Shown: one piece after another, positions 2,281 to 38,428 of the stretch | How the letters are laid out: each line of letters starts with the position of its first letter | Position numbering within the stretch: the stretch's first letter is position 1 | Assembly (NCBI GenBank): GCA_902789665.1 | Contig: CADAOY010000002.1 | Coordinates: 62,001 to 126,000 of the forward strand | DNA length: 64,000 bases | Source: an uncultured Lachnospiraceae bacterium | Lineage (GTDB): Bacteria; Bacillota; Clostridia; Lachnospirales; Lachnospiraceae | Reading direction: 5' to 3' | Made by a program: the position numbers and the translations under genes | Notes under the pieces: model-generated | Databases searched by the model: none | Seen by the model: the letters and a program-made list of their open reading frames with translations, nothing else | What the model was told of the DNA's origin: nothing

Positions 2281-2413
2281 TCCCCGCCCACACCCCGGGA
2301 CCCCACCCAAGCTGTCTTGAACACTTACACAAGGCCGCCGGCGCCTACCCATGCTGCCCTGTAGACTTACGCAAGGCCGCCCCCCCATGGCGCCCCTTAT
2401 AAAAGATTATTAT
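2281..2413 (+). repeat. G+C-rich ~41-bp minisatellite upstream of asnS
   Basis: The spacer between the DUF5711 gene and asnS begins with two diverged copies of a unit of about 41 bp. The first copy has CCCACCCAAGCTG at 2302-2314 followed by ACTTACACAAGGCCGCC. The second (about 2344-2384) has ACCCATGCTG followed by GACTTACGCAAGGCCGCC. It carries the same core CCCCGGGACCCCACCCA (2293-2309) found six more times between asnS and asnA. The composition is far more G+C-rich than the genes around it. No T-box or other leader typical of aminoacyl-tRNA synthetase genes is visible. Confidence 0.7.
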
Positions 2414-2446
2414 CCATTCTCCTCCCGCCGAGCGGGAGGTGGATGG
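2414..2446 (+). promoter_or_regulatory. Strong hairpin just upstream of asnS
   Basis: CCTCCCGC (2421-2428), loop CGA, and GCGGGAGG (2432-2439) form a perfect 8-bp stem. It is extended, after one U-U mismatch, by CCATTC pairing with GGATGG (one G-U pair). The hairpin ends 32 bases before the asnS start codon and is not followed by a T-run, so it is not a standard terminator. It may stabilise the leader, act as an attenuating structure, or be part of the neighbouring repeat family. Confidence 0.55.
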
Positions 2447-2478
2447 TTAAACATATTTCTTGAAAGGAAAATATATAT

Positions 2479-3870
2479 ATGAAAACAATTGAATTAAGAG
2501 AAATTCATCGTAACAAGGACAAATACCTGAACAATCAGGTAGAAGTTGCAGGCTGGGTTAGGAATAACCGTGACTCCAAGAATTTTGGTTTCCTGGTTAT
2601 TTCAGACGGTACATTCTTTGAGCCAATCCAGGTAGTTTATTCAGATACTCTGGAGAATTTCTCTAATATTTGCAAGATTAATATAGGAGCGGCAGTTATC
2701 GTTAAGGGTAAGCTTGTACCTACACCGGAAGCTAAGCAGCCTTATGAAATTCAGGCTGAGAGCATCGAGATTGAAGGTGATTCAACACCCGATTATCCAC
2801 TCCAGAAGAAGAGACATTCAATGGAATATTTAAGAACAATTACTCATCTTCGTCCTAGAACCAACACATTCCAGGCAGTATTCAGAGTACGTTCTTTATG
2901 TGCATATGCAATTCACAAATTCTTCCAGGAAAGAGATTTCGTATATGTTCATACACCACTTATCACAGGTTCTGACTGTGAAGGTGCAGGTGAGATGTTC
3001 CAGGTTACAACTATGGATTTAAGCAATGTTCCAATGACAGAAGATGGCAAGGTTGATTTCTCAAAAGACTTCTTCAACAAGCCAACCAATCTTACTGTAT
3101 CAGGTCAGCTTAATGGTGAGACATATGCAATGGCATTTAGAAATATCTACACCTTCGGACCTACATTCAGAGCAGAGAATTCCAATACAACACGTCATGC
3201 TGCTGAGTTCTGGATGATTGAGCCGGAAATTGCTTTTGCAGATCTTGAAGATGATATGGAACTTGCTGAGGCAATGATTAAATATATCATTAAATACGTG
3301 CTTGAGAATGCACCTGAAGAAATGCAGTTCTTCAATAACTTTGTGGACAAGGGTCTTATTGAGAGACTTGAGCATGTGGCTAATTCAGATTTCGGAAGAG
3401 TTACTTATACAGAGGCGATTGAGCTTCTTAAGAAGAATAATGATAAGTTTGAATATAAGGTTGAATGGGGATCAGATCTTCAGACTGAGCATGAGAGATA
3501 TCTTACAGAAGAAATCTTCAAAAGACCTGTCTTTGTTACAGATTATCCAAAGGAGATTAAGGCTTTCTATATGAAACTTAATGAGGATGGTAAGACTGTA
3601 GCTGCTATGGACTGCCTGGTTCCTGGTATTGGGGAAATTATTGGTGGTTCACAGAGAGAGGATAATCTTGATCTTTTGCTTAAGAGAATGAATGAACTTG
3701 GACTTAAGGAAGAGGATTATGGATTCTATCTTGATTTGAGAAGATATGGTTCGGCACGCCATGCAGGTTTTGGACTTGGTTTTGAGAGAGCGATTATGTA
3801 CTTGACAGGTATGGGTAATATCAGGGACGTTATTCCATTCCCAAGAACTGTTAATAACTGCGAGTTATAA
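2479..3870 (+). CDS. asnS: Asparaginyl-tRNA synthetase
   Basis: Charges tRNA-Asn with asparagine using ATP (class IIb aminoacyl-tRNA synthetase, cytoplasmic). The 463-aa length is normal. The N-terminal OB-fold anticodon-binding domain is at about residues 15-105 ([19 protein letters not shown]). The catalytic core has class II motif 2 ([25 protein letters not shown]) and motif 3 ([15 protein letters not shown]), with the Asn-type ending RDVIPFPR. The ATG at 2479 is preceded by GAAAGGAAA. It is followed by a repeat-filled spacer and then asnA, so asparagine charging and asparagine synthesis genes are adjacent. The direct charging enzyme together with AsnA implies free asparagine is made and used. 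Confidence 0.97.
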
Positions 3871-3884
3871 TTGCCGCCCCTTCG

Positions 3885-4126
3885 CCCCGGCACCCCACCC
3901 AAGCTGCTATGTCAGCTGACAAAGGCCCCGGCACCCCACCCAATTCACAGATTGGCAACCGATTGGTGCCCCGGGACCCCACCCAGGTCAGATTTCGAAG
4001 ACCGGAACTAGCCCCGGCACCCCACCCAGTTCACAGATCGATGACCGGAAGAAACAGGTGCCGCCCACACCCCGGGAGCCCACCCAAGCTGCCCGTCAGC
4101 TAAGCAATGCCCCGGGACCCCACCCA
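3885..4126 (+). repeat. Imperfect ~43-bp tandem repeat array between asnS and asnA
   Basis: Six copies of a 17-bp core, CCCCGG(C/G)A(C/G)CCCACCCA, start at 3885, 3926, 3969, 4012, 4070 and 4110, giving spacings of 41, 43, 43, 58 and 40 bases. The intervening sequences fall into two related sets. One begins AGCTG and contains its inverted copy CAGCT (after 3885 and 4070). The other begins TTCACAGA and includes GACCGGAA (after 3926, 4012 and 4110, with a diverged one after 3969). A seventh core lies at 2293 upstream of asnS. The G-rich complement carries clustered runs of three and four G. It behaves like a minisatellite, not a gene. Confidence 0.8.
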
Positions 4127-4168
4127 ATTCACAGACTGGCAAAAAAATGTGTTAAGGAGAACAAAACA

Positions 4169-5179
4169 ATGGATAAAATTTTCGTACCAAAGGGCTACAA
4201 GAGCCCACAATCCATTAAAGAAACAGAAAAAGCAATTAAGGAAGTAAAGGACTATTTCGAGAGAGCATTGTCCGATGCACTTGGACTTACACGTGTGTCA
4301 GCTCCGCTTTTCGTATTCCCTGAAAGCGGTCTTAACGACAACTTAAACGGCGTTGAAAGACCTGTAACTTTCGGAATCAAGGAGCAGGATGACAGAGAGG
4401 TTGAAATTGTGCATTCTCTTGCAAAGTGGAAGAGAATGGCTCTTAAGGAATACGGCTTTAAGAAAGGCGAAGGCCTTTATACTGATATGACTGCGATTCG
4501 TAGAGATGAGGACACAGACAACATTCACTCTATCTACGTAGACCAGTGGGACTGGGAAAAAATCATCGACAAGTCAGAACGTAACATCGATACTCTTAAA
4601 GAGACAGTATTCCGCATCTATATGGCAATTAAGCAGACAGAATATTATATGTGCGGTAAGTATCATTTCATGGATCCGTTCCTTCCAAATGAGATTAGTT
4701 TCGTAACTACTCAGGAACTTGAGGACAGATGGCCTGATAAAACTCCGAAGGAGAGAGAAACACTGATTGCAAAAGAAAAAGGCGCTGTATTCATTATGCA
4801 GATTGGTGACAAACTTCTTTCAGGCGAGAAGCATGACGGAAGAGCTCCAGACTATGATGACTGGGCACTTAACGGTGACATCATCGTATTCTATCCAATC
4901 CTTGGAAGCAGCTTAGAACTTAGCTCCATGGGTATCAGAGTTGATGAGGTAAGCCTTAAGGAGCAGCTCGATAAGGCAGGATGCCCTGAAAGAGCAGACC
5001 TTCCATTCCAGAAGGGAATCTTAGAGGGCAAACTTCCATATACCATCGGTGGTGGTATCGGACAGAGCCGTATCTGTATGTTCTTCTTACAAAGAGCACA
5101 CATCGGCGAGGTACAGTCAAGTATCTGGCCTAAGGAAGTTATGGACATAGCTTCTGAGAATGGAATAAATCTTTTATAA
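4169..5179 (+). CDS. asnA: Aspartate--ammonia ligase (asparagine synthetase A)
   Basis: Makes asparagine from aspartate, ammonia and ATP via an aspartyl-AMP intermediate (cytoplasmic, class II synthetase-like fold). The open frame extends upstream to 4058 through the repeat array. The start at ATG 4169 ([14 protein letters not shown]) is chosen because AAGGAGA lies just before it and the upstream residues are repeat-derived. That gives 336 aa against about 330 in E. coli. Family segments visible include [39 protein letters not shown], and the C-terminal [14 protein letters not shown]. It is followed 10 bases later by lspA, so the two are probably co-transcribed. Confidence 0.96.
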
Positions 5180-5189
5180 GGATATTTTG

Positions 5190-5819
5190 ATGAGTTTCAA
5201 AACAAAGAAAATAATTGCATATTTCCTTGGTTCGCTTTTCCTGATTATCCTGGATCAGTGGACCAAGTATATTGCGCTTATAAACTTAAGCGAAGCTGCC
5301 GTTACAGGTGAGAATGGATTTATAAACTTCTTTTCAAACCCGCCTGCAGCTACCGGCGAGGGCATTCCCGTAATTGACCAAATCATCGAGTGGCACCTTG
5401 TATACAACCAGGGTATGGCATGGGGAATGTTCGCAGGCAATCAGGTAGTACTTATATCAGTAGCAGTGATTGCCATCGCAGTATTTACATTTTTATATTT
5501 CAGATCCGGTCAGGTTAAGGGATCCTGGCTTATTCGTCTGCCTCTGATTCTGATGGTAGGCGGCGGATTCGGAAACCTTGTGGACAGAGTATTCAGGGGT
5601 GAACTGTTCAAAGGCGTTGTAGTTGACATGATATATGTTAAGTGCATTGATTTTCCGGTATTCAATGTGGCTGACAGCTGCATAACGGTTGGATGTGTAT
5701 TATTAATGCTTTCGCTCTGGTTAGTTAAGGACGAGCATTTTGGATTTCAGGAAGACAAAGGGAAGATTGAGGAAAATATCATAACGAAAGAAGAGGAAAC
5801 ACACAGTGAAAATAATTGA
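5190..5819 (+). CDS. lspA: Signal peptidase II (lipoprotein)
   Basis: Membrane aspartyl protease that removes signal peptides from diacylglyceryl-modified prolipoproteins. The start is taken as ATG 5190, with AAGGA seven bases upstream, rather than the TTG at 5187. The 209-aa protein has four predicted membrane spans. The family signature is present: VYNQGMAWGMF, GGFGNLVDRVF with catalytic Asp132, and FNVADSCITVG with catalytic Asp162. It is longer than many LspA proteins because of an insert after the first span (residues about 35-65) and a charged cytoplasmic tail (residues about 185-209). Its last 14 bases overlap the next gene, indicating translational coupling. Confidence 0.95.
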   Translation: MSFKTKKIIAYFLGSLFLIILDQWTKYIALINLSEAAVTGENGFINFFSNPPAATGEGIPVIDQIIEWHLVYNQGMAWGMFAGNQVVLISVAVIAIAVFTFLYFRSGQVKGSWLIRLPLILMVGGGFGNLVDRVFRGELFKGVVVDMIYVKCIDFPVFNVADSCITVGCVLLMLSLWLVKDEHFGFQEDKGKIEENIITKEEETHSENN

Positions 5820-6600
5820 TATGCATAGTCACATTTTCCCTGACAAAATCGCCGACCGCGCAGCCGCATCCATCGGCGAATTCTACGGTCTTCACATGGA
5901 CTGTGATGCAAGTGTTAATACACTTTTAAAAGAGGAAGCCAAAATTGAAGCAAGAAAGGTGCTGGTTTGTTCATCAGCCTTAGCGCCTAAGCAGGTTGAA
6001 AGCATTAATAACTTCTTATCAGAATCACTTAATGCGCATCCTGACAAGTTCGTGGTTTTCGGTGCAATGCACAGAGATTACGACAATTATAAAGAAGAAA
6101 TTGCAAGAGTTAAGGAACTTGGATTTACCGGAATTAAGTTCCATCATGATATGCAGAAAATTGACATCGACGATCCAAAGCAGATGCCAATATATAAGGA
6201 AATGGCGAAAAATGGCCTTGCTGTTTTATTCCATATGGGAGATGACAGATATGATTATTCTGCGCCTGCAAGAATGGTCAAGGTTGCAAGGGAGATTCCT
6301 GAACTTACCATATTTGCGGCTCATTTTGGCGGATATCAGAGATGGGCAGATTCAATACACAATCCGAAACTTGATAATGTTTACTATGATACAAGTTCAT
6401 CACTTTTTGCGCTTGATAAATCAACAGCAAAAAGATTTATCGATTACTTCGGACCGGACAGATTTTTCTTCGGCAGTGATTTTCCAATGTGGACACCGGA
6501 AAGTGAGCTTAAGAGATTCTTAAATCTAGGCCTCGGCGATGAGGTAAATAAGATGATTCTTCATGATAATGCAGCAAGAGTTTTGGGACTGAAAGATTAA
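5806..6600 (+). CDS. Amidohydrolase family (TIM-barrel) metal-dependent hydrolase
   Basis: 264-aa amidohydrolase-2 type protein starting at GTG 5806 inside the end of lspA (GAGGAA upstream). Likely metal ligands are the HxH of MHSHIFP (residues 6-8), later histidines in FHHDM, FHMGDD and AAHFGG, and the C-terminal aspartate in FGSDFPMW. Members act as decarboxylases or hydrolases on small carboxylic or aromatic substrates; the substrate here cannot be read from sequence. It is followed 16 bases later by the large adenylation/reductase gene, so a joint role in handling a small acid is possible but only inferred from position. Confidence 0.85.
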   Translation: MKIIDMHSHIFPDKIADRAAASIGEFYGLHMDCDASVNTLLKEEAKIEARKVLVCSSALAPKQVESINNFLSESLNAHPDKFVVFGAMHRDYDNYKEEIARVKELGFTGIKFHHDMQKIDIDDPKQMPIYKEMAKNGLAVLFHMGDDRYDYSAPARMVKVAREIPELTIFAAHFGGYQRWADSIHNPKLDNVYYDTSSSLFALDKSTAKRFIDYFGPDRFFFGSDFPMWTPESELKRFLNLGLGDEVNKMILHDNAARVLGLKD

Positions 6601-24553: not shown

Positions 24554-24604
24554 AAAATGCCAGTCCCGAAATATCTTGTATTTGCGGGGCTGGTATTTTA
24601 TAAT
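24554..24604 (+). terminator. Strong 15-bp hairpin terminator after the HD-GYP gene
   Basis: AAAATGCCAGTCCCG (24554-24568) pairs along its whole length with CGGGGCTGGTATTTT (24585-24599), with two G-U pairs, and AAATA/TATTT extends it inside. It ends in TATTTTATAA. The A-run on the 5' side would let it work from the other strand as well. Confidence 0.7.
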
Positions 24605-24615
24605 TAGAGCATAAA

Positions 24616-24701
24616 TTGAAATACTTACTGCTGACGGTATTATGTGATAACACAGTGTAGTAAGTAGCTGGATTTTCCAGTATAAGCCGACCGTCTGGGC
24701 A
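24616..24701 (+). ncRNA. Probable ZTP (pfl motif) riboswitch upstream of the OFA transporter
   Basis: A 7-bp stem P1 (ACTTACT 24623-24629 with AGTAAGT 24659-24665) encloses CTGACGG and a small hairpin TGTG-ATAA-CACA. A linker hairpin CTGGA-TTT-TCCAG (24668-24680) follows, and then GCCGACCGTCTGGGCA (24686-24701). This order and the 3' conserved block CCG(C/T)CTGGGCA are those of the pfl/ZTP riboswitch, which senses the purine intermediate ZMP/ZTP when formyl-tetrahydrofolate is short. The 3' block is also the 5' side of a terminator, as usual for this class. The call is by eye; the region after P2 matches the consensus less well. Confidence 0.65.
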
Positions 24702-24726
24702 ATGTCTTGTGGCATTGTCCTTTTAT
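24697..24726 (+). terminator. Riboswitch expression-platform terminator
   Basis: GGGCAATGTC (24697-24706), loop TTGT and GGCATTGTCC (24711-24720) form a 10-bp stem with G-U pairs, followed by TTTTATTATA. The GGGCA of the conserved riboswitch core is used by the terminator stem, so ligand binding and termination would be mutually exclusive. Confidence 0.7.
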
Positions 24727-24773
24727 TATACCCATTTGCCGGGGAGCATCCCGCCGCGCACGCCGCGCAGGCG

Positions 24774-24806
24774 AAAAAGATGCACATTACCCCGTCCCTA
24801 GTGGCA
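24774..24806. repeat. 33-bp intergenic repeat, copy 1
   Basis: A 33-bp stretch running from AAAAAGATGCACATTA to CCGTCCCTAGTGGCA is identical to 33489-33521. It lies between the riboswitch terminator and the OFA transporter gene and is preceded by a very G+C-rich run (GCCGCGCACGCCGCGCAGGC). Function unknown. Confidence 0.75.
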
Positions 24807-24852
24807 CAGTATAAGAAAGGACAATTGCGGGTTTTTGAAGATGGAGGTTTAT

Positions 24853-26094
24853 ATGAGTTTTCTTAACAACAAATGGATGAGAGCTGCCGTACCTGCACTT
24901 TTAATCCACTGCTCAATAGGTACAGTTTACTGTTGGTCTACTTTCAAAGAGAGAATCTCCGAAGCCATCGGAATGGACACATTCGGTGTAGGCTGGGCGT
25001 TCTCCCTGGCTATATTCTTCCTTGGCATGTCGGCTGCTTTTGCAGGTAAGATGGTAGAGAAGAATATTCATAAATCATCCCTTATTTCATGCATATGCTT
25101 TACCGTCGGAATGCTCGGTACAGGCGCATCAATTCAGTTTTTAAAAGGACCTGCGGCCCTTATTTCAATATATATTTTCTACGGCTGCATCATGGGTATC
25201 GGCCTTGGTGTCGGTTATCTTACACCGGTTAAAACACTTATGCTCTGGTTTGATAAGCAGAAAGGTCTTGCAACAGGTATCTCCATCATGGGCTTCGGTC
25301 TTGCCAAAGCAATCGCCACACCTATCATGGAAGCAATCCTTTCAAGATTCGGTATCTCTGCGATGTTCTATATTTTAGGTGGCGTGTATTTTGTCATGAT
25401 GTTACTCGGTCACTTCCTTCTTAAGAAGCCGGAAGGCTGGGTTGAGCCTCAGGATAACAAGGACGGCTTCAAGGTTATGTCCATGTTCAAGAACAAAGTA
25501 TTCCTTGGAATCTGGCTTATGTTCTTTATCAACATTCACTGCGGCCTTGCACTTATCACATACGAAAAGCAGATCATTCAGACAACATTTGAAGGCATGG
25601 CAGTTCTTGCAGTAATGGTCAGCGTTGTGCCTATGGTAACTGCTGCATTTAACGCGCTCGGCCGTATCGGATACTCAACCATCTCAGATAAGATGAAGGA
25701 CAGAAATACGGTTTACCAGATTATCTTCATAAGCTGCATCTTAATCACAGGCATTGCACTTGTTACACAGTCAATCACAAAGGGACCTCAGACCATTGTA
25801 TTTGGTATGATTACAGTTTGCCTTCTTCTCCTTGTTAACCTTGGATACGGCGGCGGCTTCTCAACACTTCCTGCACTTCTTTCATCAAGATTTGGTATGG
25901 AAAAGATTAGCAAAATCCACGGCCTGTCACTTTCCGCCTGGGCAATCGCAGGTATTACAGGAAATAACATGACTGAAATCATCAAGCATTTTGTTGGAAA
26001 CAGATATGAAGTTGTACTTATCGCAACCCTTTGTTTCTACATTGCAGCCCTTCTTATCTGCTTAATTTTGGTTAAAGAGAAAAAAGAAAAATAG
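24853..26094 (+). CDS. OFA-family MFS transporter (oxalate/formate antiporter-like)
   Basis: 413-aa membrane protein with about 12 predicted spans. The ATG at 24853 (MSFLNNKWMRAAVPALL) is chosen because GGAGG lies five bases upstream; in-frame TTG and ATG codons at 24835 and 24841 are less likely. OFA-type features are the N-terminal CSIGTVYCWSTF segment, GCIMGIGLGVGYLTPVKTLMLWF with FDKQKGLATGISIMGFGLAKA, and the long central loop at about residues 195-215. The family exchanges small organic anions such as oxalate and formate, but many members have unknown cargo. The ZTP riboswitch ahead of it links expression to one-carbon/folate status, which favours formate or a related acid (inference). 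Confidence 0.85.
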   Translation: MSFLNNKWMRAAVPALLIHCSIGTVYCWSTFKERISEAIGMDTFGVGWAFSLAIFFLGMSAAFAGKMVEKNIHKSSLISCICFTVGMLGTGASIQFLKGPAALISIYIFYGCIMGIGLGVGYLTPVKTLMLWFDKQKGLATGISIMGFGLAKAIATPIMEAILSRFGISAMFYILGGVYFVMMLLGHFLLKKPEGWVEPQDNKDGFKVMSMFKNKVFLGIWLMFFINIHCGLALITYEKQIIQTTFEGMAVLAVMVSVVPMVTAAFNALGRIGYSTISDKMKDRNTVYQIIFISCILITGIALVTQSITKGPQTIVFGMITVCLLLLVNLGYGGGFSTLPALLSSRFGMEKISKIHGLSLSAWAIAGITGNNMTEIIKHFVGNRYEVVLIATLCFYIAALLICLILVKEKKEK

Positions 26095-33488: not shown

Positions 33489-33521
33489 AAAAAGATGCAC
33501 ATTACCCCGTCCCTAGTGGCA
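33489..33521. repeat. 33-bp intergenic repeat, copy 2
   Basis: Identical over 33 bp to 24774-24806 and in the same orientation. It lies 23 bases before the metallophosphoesterase start codon, as the other copy lies 46 bases before a transporter start codon. Confidence 0.75.
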
Positions 33522-34933: not shown

Positions 34934-36820
34934 ATGAAAGAATTATATGTATTTTACATAGCCGCTGTCATAGTATTCGGAATATGTTTCGTGATGCTTT
35001 CCGACAAGGGCTTAAGCAGAAGAAATAATAAATTATTATTCATGGTTAATCTGAATGGATTACTTGCATCCCTTATCCTTGAGATGAATCAGATAGTAAG
35101 TCCGTTTTTAGATACTAACCTGATTAGTTTATATCTGTATCATGCGATACATGTTGTTTTTATTGTGCATGTTTTTCTGTATGCAGTTGATATCTGCGGT
35201 AGATGGTATTCTTTCAACAAAATCAAGATGGCGCTTACCTTCGCGCCGATAGGGATTTTTTATCTTATCTTATTATCCAATCCTTTGACGAAACTGGCCT
35301 TTACGGTGGAAGATGGTGTATATCACAGAGGAAACGGCATACTGGTTGAATATGTTATCGCCATTGCCTTTTTGATACTTACCATATATATGATAATCAA
35401 ATATCACAAGGCCATTGGTATTCGTAAGGTTTATGAGATTATTCTTTTTATCATTCTCTCCCTTATTGGTGTGGGAATTCAGTTTGTTTACCCGGAAATT
35501 AAATGTGAATTATTCTTTGAGGCAGTTGCGGTGTTCTCTATCTGCGGCTTTACGGAAAGTGAAGGACAGGTACGTGATCCGATTACGGGATTATACAACA
35601 GGGCGCTTTTTGCCAGCGATGTGGAGCAGTATATAAAGGCGAATGTCAGATATAATGTTGTGCTGATTAGAATGGCAAACTTCAATCACCTTAATAATGC
35701 AGTTGGATATAATTATGTGAATGATATGCTGAACATCGTGTCTGAGAAACTAAAGGATACGTTTGGTAAGGGCAGCAGTTTGTATTATTTAAGCGGCGGG
35801 GGTTTTGCCTATATTAATAATTCATCCAGGGAGGATATGGATGAGTATATTGAGAAACTTAAGGGGCAGTTTGGAGAGGCCATTCAGGTTGGCGGTTATA
35901 ATATTCCTGCGGACATAAATGTGGTATGTCTGCGTGTGCCTGAGGATGCGGATTCGCTTAATAATATCCTGATGTTTTCTGACTCCCTACGAAGGACTTA
36001 TGAGCACGGCGTGCAGGTTTATAAGGGTGAGAAATTAGAGACCATAAACAGGAAACTTAAGGTTGAGAAGGCGCTGCAAAACGGGCTTAATAGCGGGGCT
36101 TATCAGGTCTTCTATCAGCCGATATATGATAACAGGACAGGTAAGGTGCATTCTGCGGAGGCGTTATCGAGATTGATTGATCCGGAACTTGGATTCATCT
36201 CCCCGGATGAATTTATTGCGGTTGCAGAGGAAAGTGACCTTATCTTTGAGGTTGGGGAAGAGATGTTTAAGAAGGTCTGCCAGGATATTGCCAAGGGCGA
36301 ACTTAAGAAATATGGCATTGATTTTATTGAAATTAATCTTTCGCCGGTACAGCTTATGAAGAAGAATATCGCGGAAGATTTTAAGAATATCATGAAGGAA
36401 TACAACGTCACGACGGATGATATTAACTTAGAGATTACTGAGTCTACGGCGGAGCGTTCGGAGGATATCTTTATTGATAATTATATTAAACTTAAGGATG
36501 AGGGATTTTCCTTCTCGCTTGATGATTACGGCACCGGGCTTAGTAATATGTCATCGATTCTTAATATGCAGTTTAAGATAATTAAGATAGACAAGAGCAT
36601 TTTGTGGGATGCTGCGAAGAATCAGCAGGCGAAAATCGTCTTTGAAGGAATCTCCGAGATGTTCCAGCATATGGGGCTTGAGATCGTAACGGAAGGGGCT
36701 GAAACCAAGGAGCAGGTTGATTATATCTCAGGACTTGGCATAGAGTACAGCCAGGGCTTCTATTTCTCCAAGCCGATACCGTATGGGGAGTTTGTGGAGT
36801 TTTGTAAAAAGCGAGCGTGA
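34934..36820 (+). CDS. Membrane EAL phosphodiesterase with degenerate GGDEF domain
   Basis: 628 aa starting at ATG 34934 (AAGGAT upstream). The N-terminal 205 residues contain about six or seven membrane spans forming an uncharacterised sensor. A GGDEF domain (about 215-370) begins DPITGLYNRALF but has SGGGF (287-291) where the active site should be, so cyclase activity is unlikely. The EAL domain (about 385-628) is intact: AEALSR (Glu409-Leu411), NLEITES, SLDDYGTG, KIDKSIL, VTEGAE and QGFYFSKP. By family, it degrades cyclic di-GMP to pGpG, perhaps with GTP binding by the dead GGDEF as a control. Its stop codon abuts the first copy of the 39-bp direct repeat. Confidence 0.9.
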   Translation: MKELYVFYIAAVIVFGICFVMLSDKGLSRRNNKLLFMVNLNGLLASLILEMNQIVSPFLDTNLISLYLYHAIHVVFIVHVFLYAVDICGRWYSFNKIKMALTFAPIGIFYLILLSNPLTKLAFTVEDGVYHRGNGILVEYVIAIAFLILTIYMIIKYHKAIGIRKVYEIILFIILSLIGVGIQFVYPEIKCELFFEAVAVFSICGFTESEGQVRDPITGLYNRALFASDVEQYIKANVRYNVVLIRMANFNHLNNAVGYNYVNDMLNIVSEKLKDTFGKGSSLYYLSGGGFAYINNSSREDMDEYIEKLKGQFGEAIQVGGYNIPADINVVCLRVPEDADSLNNILMFSDSLRRTYEHGVQVYKGEKLETINRKLKVEKALQNGLNSGAYQVFYQPIYDNRTGKVHSAEALSRLIDPELGFISPDEFIAVAEESDLIFEVGEEMFKKVCQDIAKGELKKYGIDFIEINLSPVQLMKKNIAEDFKNIMKEYNVTTDDINLEITESTAERSEDIFIDNYIKLKDEGFSFSLDDYGTGLSNMSSILNMQFKIIKIDKSILWDAAKNQQAKIVFEGISEMFQHMGLEIVTEGAETKEQVDYISGLGIEYSQGFYFSKPIPYGEFVEFCKKRA

Positions 36821-36858
36821 AAGGAAAAAAGAGCTTAGGCTCTTTTTTTTATGGGAAA
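36820..36858. repeat. 39-bp direct repeat, left copy, containing a terminator
   Basis: Bases 36820-36858 are identical to 38390-38428. The repeat contains AAAAAAGAGC-TTAG-GCTCTTTTTTTT (36825-36850), a rho-independent terminator for the EAL gene, followed by ATGGGAAA. Together the copies bracket the HigB/HigA module exactly. Confidence 0.85.
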
Positions 36859-38389: not shown

Positions 38390-38428
38390 AAAGGAAAAAA
38401 GAGCTTAGGCTCTTTTTTTTATGGGAAA
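38390..38428. repeat. 39-bp direct repeat, right copy, containing a terminator
   Basis: Identical to 36820-36858. It begins three bases after the stop of the HigA-like gene and serves as that operon's terminator (GAGC-TTAG-GCTC plus eight T, 38401-38420). Confidence 0.85.

Follow-up and report, generated by a model that had tools for sequence, protein, structure and literature searches.

A ZMP/ZTP riboswitch precedes a monocarboxylate-type MFS carrier, probably a formate importer, in a Lachnospiraceae bacterium

The window, i.e. the whole 64-kb stretch of DNA analysed here, encodes on its forward strand a 413-aa MFS carrier (24853-26094), the leader of which comprises a possible promoter, a riboswitch aptamer, an intrinsic terminator and a Shine-Dalgarno sequence. 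A cmscan search of the entire 64-kb window against 4227 Rfam families assigned positions 24617-24707(+) to the ZMP-ZTP family RF01750, with a match spanning the full model (positions 1-86; 40.9 bits against a gathering score of 39; E 0.0029), and RF01750 was the sole Rfam family to reach its gathering score. In the whole genome from which the window derives (G000; 2.25 Mb, 91.5% complete), this site was likewise the only such match at E <= 0.001 (E 2.4e-5). The earlier note had placed a ZTP riboswitch at 24616-24852, and the covariance-model search it had proposed as a check, run on both window and genome, left that claim standing.

The score margin over the cut-off is small (1.9 bits); the core is nonetheless intact. 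A 9-bp P1 stem (UACUUACUG, 24622-24630, with UAGUAAGUA, 24658-24666) encloses a UGUG/CACA inner hairpin (24643-24654) and is followed by a linker hairpin (24667-24681), both hairpins as given by the computed fold. The J1/2 strand GACGG (24633-24637) pairs at 5/5 positions with CCGUC (24691-24695), the pseudoknot strand contained in the P3 and conserved core segment GCCGACCGUCUGGGC (24686-24700), with P3 itself formed by GCC (24686-24688) and GGC (24698-24700). The intrinsic terminator, which would serve as expression platform (24697-24728), consists of a 10-pair stem, GGGCAAUGUC-UUGU-GGCAUUGUCC (24697-24720), and the T run UUUUAUUAUA; its fold is stable (-15.2 kcal/mol, z -4.7), and its 5′ arm is the 3′ GGGC of the aptamer P3. 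The element order, the sequences and the GGGCA common to aptamer and terminator, all proposed beforehand, are thus present. We regard 24617-24707 as almost certainly a ZMP/ZTP riboswitch, and within its class the element is unremarkable.

Just 5′ of the aptamer, TTGTAT-17-TATAAT (24576-24604), read from the sequence, has a perfect -10 and a 3/6 -35 element and lies under the threshold of the promoter scan; it is a possible promoter of the leader. At the other end, the start codon ATG 24853 with its Shine-Dalgarno sequence GGAGG (24843-24847) sets the leader end at 24852, in agreement with the earlier proposal. In transcriptional ON switches of the ZTP class, the ligand holds the pseudoknot and the terminator is prevented (PMC7337938), and the present leader has the layout of such a switch.

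Several repeats were also seen in the window. An exact 33-nt repeat occurs in the leaders of two genes (24774-24806 and 33489-33521), and in the carrier leader it is preceded by a GC-rich (71%) run of CGCGCACGC-like units, of which L032, a genome of the same species, has a longer version. Elsewhere, a 31-nt unit with the core CCCCGGCACCCCACCCA occurs seven times within 2284-4142, mostly at intervals of ~40-60 nt, and an exact, terminator-like 39-nt repeat is found at 36820-36858 and 38390-38428.

The association of riboswitch and carrier recurs in other genomes. Among the best 80 of 186 relatives, five (L032, L047, L049, L060 and L101) have a ZTP core directly 5′ of the carrier gene, as do three of the 53 carrier-bearing genomes (G000, G091 and G224) in a family panel of 299. 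L032 is of the same species as the window (99% identity), and L049 was grouped with genome G224 and shares its ZTP-carrier lineage with L047; the pair is present in five lineages, including Peptacetobacter hominis (L101). RF01750 scores lay above the cut-off in L101 (49.9 bits), L060 (43.7) and L032 (39.2) and below it in L047 (33.7), L049 (31.9) and L113, the G091 locus (31.5). Despite these sub-cut-off scores, the leaders of L047, L049 and G091 contain the full ZTP core, with the pseudoknot pairing 5/5 in L049 and G091, where it was counted. Across six leaders counted, the P1 arms vary between lineages yet pair over 7-10 bp, and in L060 the pseudoknot GGCGG/CCGCC replaces GACGG/CCGUC, i.e. 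both strands have changed. On a tree of 107 carrier rows (duplicates L114, L117, L126, L142 and L143 dropped, here as in the box counts below), the seven ZTP-bearing rows require five changes by a quick method, at least two of them forced by strongly supported branches. Judged from sequence, the riboswitch is genuine, and several lineages have it in front of the carrier. The literature that we searched, whose coverage did not reach the ZTP gene lists of Kim et al. 2015, does not name a ZTP switch on this carrier.

Most carriers lack the switch, namely 100 of the 107 rows and 50 of the 53 in the family panel. In G120, from the window's own genus, there was no RF01750 match in the genome and no ZTP core 5′ of the carrier. 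A core-like match 5′ of L126 was not counted, as it lies within coding sequence and the other features are absent. In two other families the carrier is scarce: only one of 71 genomes of L101's family and two of 98 genomes of L060's family have it, the second of the latter without ZTP switch, and it may have been acquired there by transfer. In the P. hominis locus, the carrier gene (4001-5221) has one in-frame stop and the riboswitch is intact; a fluoride riboswitch (RF01734, 41.2 bits) lies nearby at 6001-6074.

The expression platform differs in two relatives. L049 and L047 (3894-4003 in each) depart from the class layout seen in the window in that the ZTP aptamer has no terminator and is followed, a few bases downstream, by a Shine-Dalgarno sequence, an arrangement that suggests a translational switch. 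The L047 leader fold is not unusual against shuffles (z 0.6). In both, pairing is conceivable between the linker CAUCCCCC and the Shine-Dalgarno region GGAGGAUG.

The carrier protein has an MFS_1 domain and resembles two groups of transporters at a distance. Its best NCBIfam score was obtained with the SfMCT L-lactate transporter model (NF049980; 233.8 bits, missing the cut-off of 320), and it reached 137.6 bits with the OFA model (cut-off 374.85) and 94.1 bits with the oxalate/formate antiporter model (cut-off 335), the OFA models being TIGR00890 / TIGR04259. OxlT and SfMCT were the only solved relatives found by sequence at E 0.001. A structure model built from 47 sequences (mean pLDDT 84.7) retrieved OxlT at rank 1 in Foldseek (TMq 0.83), followed by SfMCT and human MCTs. 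By pairwise sequence alignment at ~20% identity, rather than by superposition, OxlT Arg272 and SfMCT Arg280 correspond to carrier Arg271, their Asn partner (OxlT Asn268, SfMCT Asn276) to Asn267, and OxlT Lys355 to Trp363; all three carrier residues are invariant in the 47 sequences. OxlT requires both Arg272 and Lys355, which are stated to be conserved in OFA (PMC10070484), and SfMCT requires Arg280 and Asn276 (PMC6573034). With Arg271 and Asn267 kept and a Trp at the Lys355 position, the carrier pocket looks suited to a single carboxylate. Given this Trp and the missed curated cut-offs, the protein is not a canonical oxalate/formate antiporter. Oxalate, part of the cargo type first proposed for this protein, is unlikely because the OFA-type cut-offs were missed and the second basic residue of OFA is absent, and we rejected it as a candidate. 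The original OFA-family assignment is retained only in weakened form: the protein is OFA-like, with both model scores short of their cut-offs and without that second basic residue.

ZTP switches elsewhere in the family stand before genes of formate metabolism. RF01750 was detected in at least 147 of the 299 family genomes (E <= 0.001, stricter filters), a lower bound because the riboswitches that precede the carrier in G091 (31.5 bits) and G224 (31.9 bits), both under the cut-off, were not listed. Among the matches listed, from which the gene pairs were chosen by eye, at least 24 switches precede a PFL gene, with a distance of 78-263 bp in 18 of them and of 807-1019 bp in six, and nine have a PF01226 gene downstream (one at 198 bp, eight at 1.9-2.4 kb). 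Six of the eight distant PF01226 cases have an ORF of 561-562 aa in between, which is formate-THF ligase in both instances tested (L163 and L169). Both pfl and fhs are already known as ZTP targets (PMC2864571). ZTP switches in this family thus appear to control formate supply, a place that the MFS carrier would occupy in the window species.

Across the panel, which holds nearly one genome per genus, the carrier and FocA-type channels tend to avoid each other. PF01226, a family that also includes nitrite carriers, was found in 8 of 53 carrier-positive and 147 of 246 carrier-negative genomes (Fisher p 2e-9, shared ancestry ignored), and the avoidance holds within both PFL-positive (p 9.8e-6) and PFL-negative (p 2.1e-4) strata, again with shared ancestry ignored; 99 of the 299 genomes have neither. 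The four PF01226 proteins tested scored below the NCBIfam FNT and FocA cut-offs. PFL itself showed mild co-occurrence with the carrier (46 of 53 carrier-positive versus 173 of 246 carrier-negative genomes, p 0.016). Operon evidence for carrier function is weak. In a set of 117 carrier-locus sequences that contained the window and had flanks of at most 1.5 to 4 kb, the carrier adjoins a PF01226 gene in two genomes, G002 and G188, each represented by two locus ids, Fhs pieces lie ~3.5 kb upstream of it in L108 and L111, and no match to PFL, NrdD, NrdG or FDH was found.

The window genome encodes formate-THF ligase (Fhs). Searches of the whole genome found no PFL (TIGR01255), no PF01226 (at E 1e-20) and no Fdh-alpha (TIGR01591), each of which could be a gap given its 91.5% completeness; no Fdh-alpha match was found in G299, of the same species, and the 100% complete G120 likewise has Fhs and gave no match to PFL, PF01226 or Fdh-alpha. 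The remaining ZTP-linked genomes vary. G091 has only PFL-like matches far under the cut-off and no Fdh-alpha match; G224 and G314 have Fdh-alpha with no PFL found, and Fhs was not found in G314; G327 (L060) and G368 (L101) have PFL, the latter with an Fdh-alpha match under the cut-off. A formate-dependent importer therefore fits the ZTP-linked cases unequally, and a general rule of an always PFL-less host was rejected on account of the L060 and L101 genomes.

A second type of regulatory element was found on carriers that lack the ZTP switch. Upstream regions were scored with the NrdR box consensus acaCwAtATaTwGtgt, and a pair was called when it scored >= 24 of 32 and its two boxes started at a distance of 30-33 bp. 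Tandem NrdR-type boxes precede the carrier in 11 of 107 upstream regions, with 0.05 expected in shuffles, counts that are to be read with the threshold having been picked after the score distribution was known and with the rows being related rather than independent. No such pair occurs in the rest of these carrier loci, of which 791,944 bases were scanned on one strand. The box-bearing rows comprise one clade (L056, L059, L062, L065, L066 and L098) as well as L072, L081, L115, L094 and L116, where L116 is G120, from the same genus as the window; none is a ZTP row, and the window species is without boxes. Starts of the 16-bp boxes lie 31-33 bp apart in the 11, leaving spacers of 15 bp in seven, 16 in three and 17 in one. 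When spacings from 17 to 60 were compared, eight regions had a pair at threshold at 31 bp and 0 to 4 at the others (4 at 29 bp), and the E. coli nrdD pair, used as positive control, was recovered by the same scan (26 of 32, spacing 31). At the same threshold, one of 37 FocA-type upstream regions contains an NrdR-type pair, and none of the 37 contains a ZTP core. Neither a ZTP core nor an NrdR-type pair was found 5′ of the remaining 23 family carriers. NrdR binds boxes with 14-17 bp spacers (PMC12051234) and represses RNR genes, among which the formate-requiring class III RNR takes formate as reductant (PMC11226230).

The one FocA-type region with an NrdR-type pair (24 of 32) is that of L228 (G207), upstream of a PF01226 gene. 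In eight loci (L043, L045, L046, L057, L070, L073, L087 and L102), a palindrome GTTGCANNTGCAAC, possibly another operator, is located 60-75 nt before the carrier start, followed by terminator-like T runs in some copies and not in others.

Taking these data together, we consider it probable that the ZTP riboswitch activates expression of an MFS carrier of the monocarboxylate type, and that this carrier imports formate when 10-formyl-THF is short. Given the layout of the window leader and the mechanism known for the class, low 10-formyl-THF would let ZMP/ZTP accumulate; bound to the aptamer, they would keep pseudoknot and P3 in place, so that the GGGC strand would be unavailable to start the terminator and transcription would enter the carrier gene. 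As the aligned binding-site residues and the comparative genomics suggest, Arg271, positioned by Asn267, would then bind a small monocarboxylate and allow formate uptake. Gene content points to formate-THF ligase as the enzyme that would turn this formate into 10-formyl-THF; purine synthesis would resume, ZMP would fall and the switch would close. Cargo and direction are the parts we infer, and formate is the best-supported cargo in that four partly independent comparative lines agree on it, i.e. the presence of Fhs with no formate source found, ZTP switches on formate genes, the rarity of FocA-type channels in carrier-positive genomes, and NrdR-type control of orthologues. A connection with formate and 10-formyl-THF had been suggested from the window sequence at the outset, and it thereby gains independent comparative support.

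A carrier for lactate, pyruvate, glycolate or glyoxylate under the same, real riboswitch, helping one-carbon and purine metabolism indirectly, is in our view an unlikely alternative. The SfMCT L-lactate model outscores the OFA models, the SfMCT pair Arg280/Asn276 is kept while OxlT Lys355 is not, and in the Foldseek ranking SfMCT and human MCTs come right after OxlT. However, the SfMCT cut-off was missed too, and such a cargo would leave unexplained why the carrier avoids PF01226, why it sits in the regulatory slot of pfl and fhs-focA, and why its orthologues have NrdR-type boxes. Formate import also has to be weighed against a carrier that mainly exports formate or another fermentation acid, with the ZTP switch tuning efflux, which we judge improbable. 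Formate must exit from the 46 of 53 carrier-positive family genomes that have PFL, where export is as plausible, and carrier direction can follow the gradient, since OxlT is an antiporter (PMC10070484) and SfMCT a proton-coupled carrier (PMC6573034). In the window species, on the other hand, with no PFL or Fdh-alpha found there would be little formate to export, and switching on an exporter at 10-formyl-THF shortage would deepen the shortage. The earlier note had left both directions open; of the two, the ON switch and the absence of PFL and Fdh-alpha matches from the genome make import more likely and export less so.

It is very improbable that the RNA has decayed, or resembles the class by chance, and leaves the carrier gene unregulated. 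Its narrow excess over the cut-off, the three related leaders below it, and G120, without match in its genome or core before its carrier, are what such a reading could draw upon. They are opposed by the intact core, the fully paired pseudoknot, the 9-bp P1 and a terminator in register, and by the recurrence in five lineages, in which altered P1 arms still pair and one pseudoknot has changed on both sides. A chance match was rejected on the grounds of the RF01750 match, the related leaders, and the pseudoknot and P1 pairing.

Beyond the window, we lean slightly towards a broader reading of the carrier clade, which the models render as distant OFA or lactate transporters, as an on-demand formate importer under either of two unrelated sensors, the ZTP riboswitch or tandem NrdR boxes, and as a stand-in for FocA where formate is not made. 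The two sensors would track formate-consuming pathways, namely 10-formyl-THF for purines and dNTPs made by the formate-using anaerobic RNR. This names a testable cargo, formate, for a clade that sequence models leave without assignment, and does so via regulatory logic rather than homology. If true, some anaerobes of the family need external formate to make purines and DNA precursors, which would constitute a cross-feeding route between bacteria, and riboswitch and repressor would be interchangeable as demand sensors on one transporter.

Compared with known systems, the leader shares with the ZMP/ZTP (pfl) class a P1 enclosing P2, the J1/2-L3 pseudoknot, the conserved 3′ core, the 5′ leader position and a terminator that uses a P3 strand. 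It differs in its target, since PMC2864571, in its available part, lists purH, fhs, pfl, glyA and folD for the class and no MFS monocarboxylate-type carrier. The carrier resembles the OxlT oxalate:formate antiporter (PDB 8hpj/8hpk) in fold and in its equivalents of Arg272 and Asn268, but is only 21% identical to it, has Trp363 at the Lys355 position and misses the TIGR04259 and TIGR00890 cut-offs. With SfMCT (PDB 6g9x) it has in common the single carboxylate Arg with its Asn partner, whereas identity is ~20%, the Cys362 position is a Trp and the cut-off of 320 was missed. The 11 box-bearing relatives are reminiscent of NrdR box pairs before RNR genes, with two 16-bp boxes and 15-17-bp spacers, except that the candidate target is a transporter and not an RNR. 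Finally, the ZTP-fhs-focA and ZTP-pfl leaders of the family place the same riboswitch class before formate supply genes, with the difference that the transporter in the fhs-focA arrangement belongs to the unrelated FNT channel family (PF01226).
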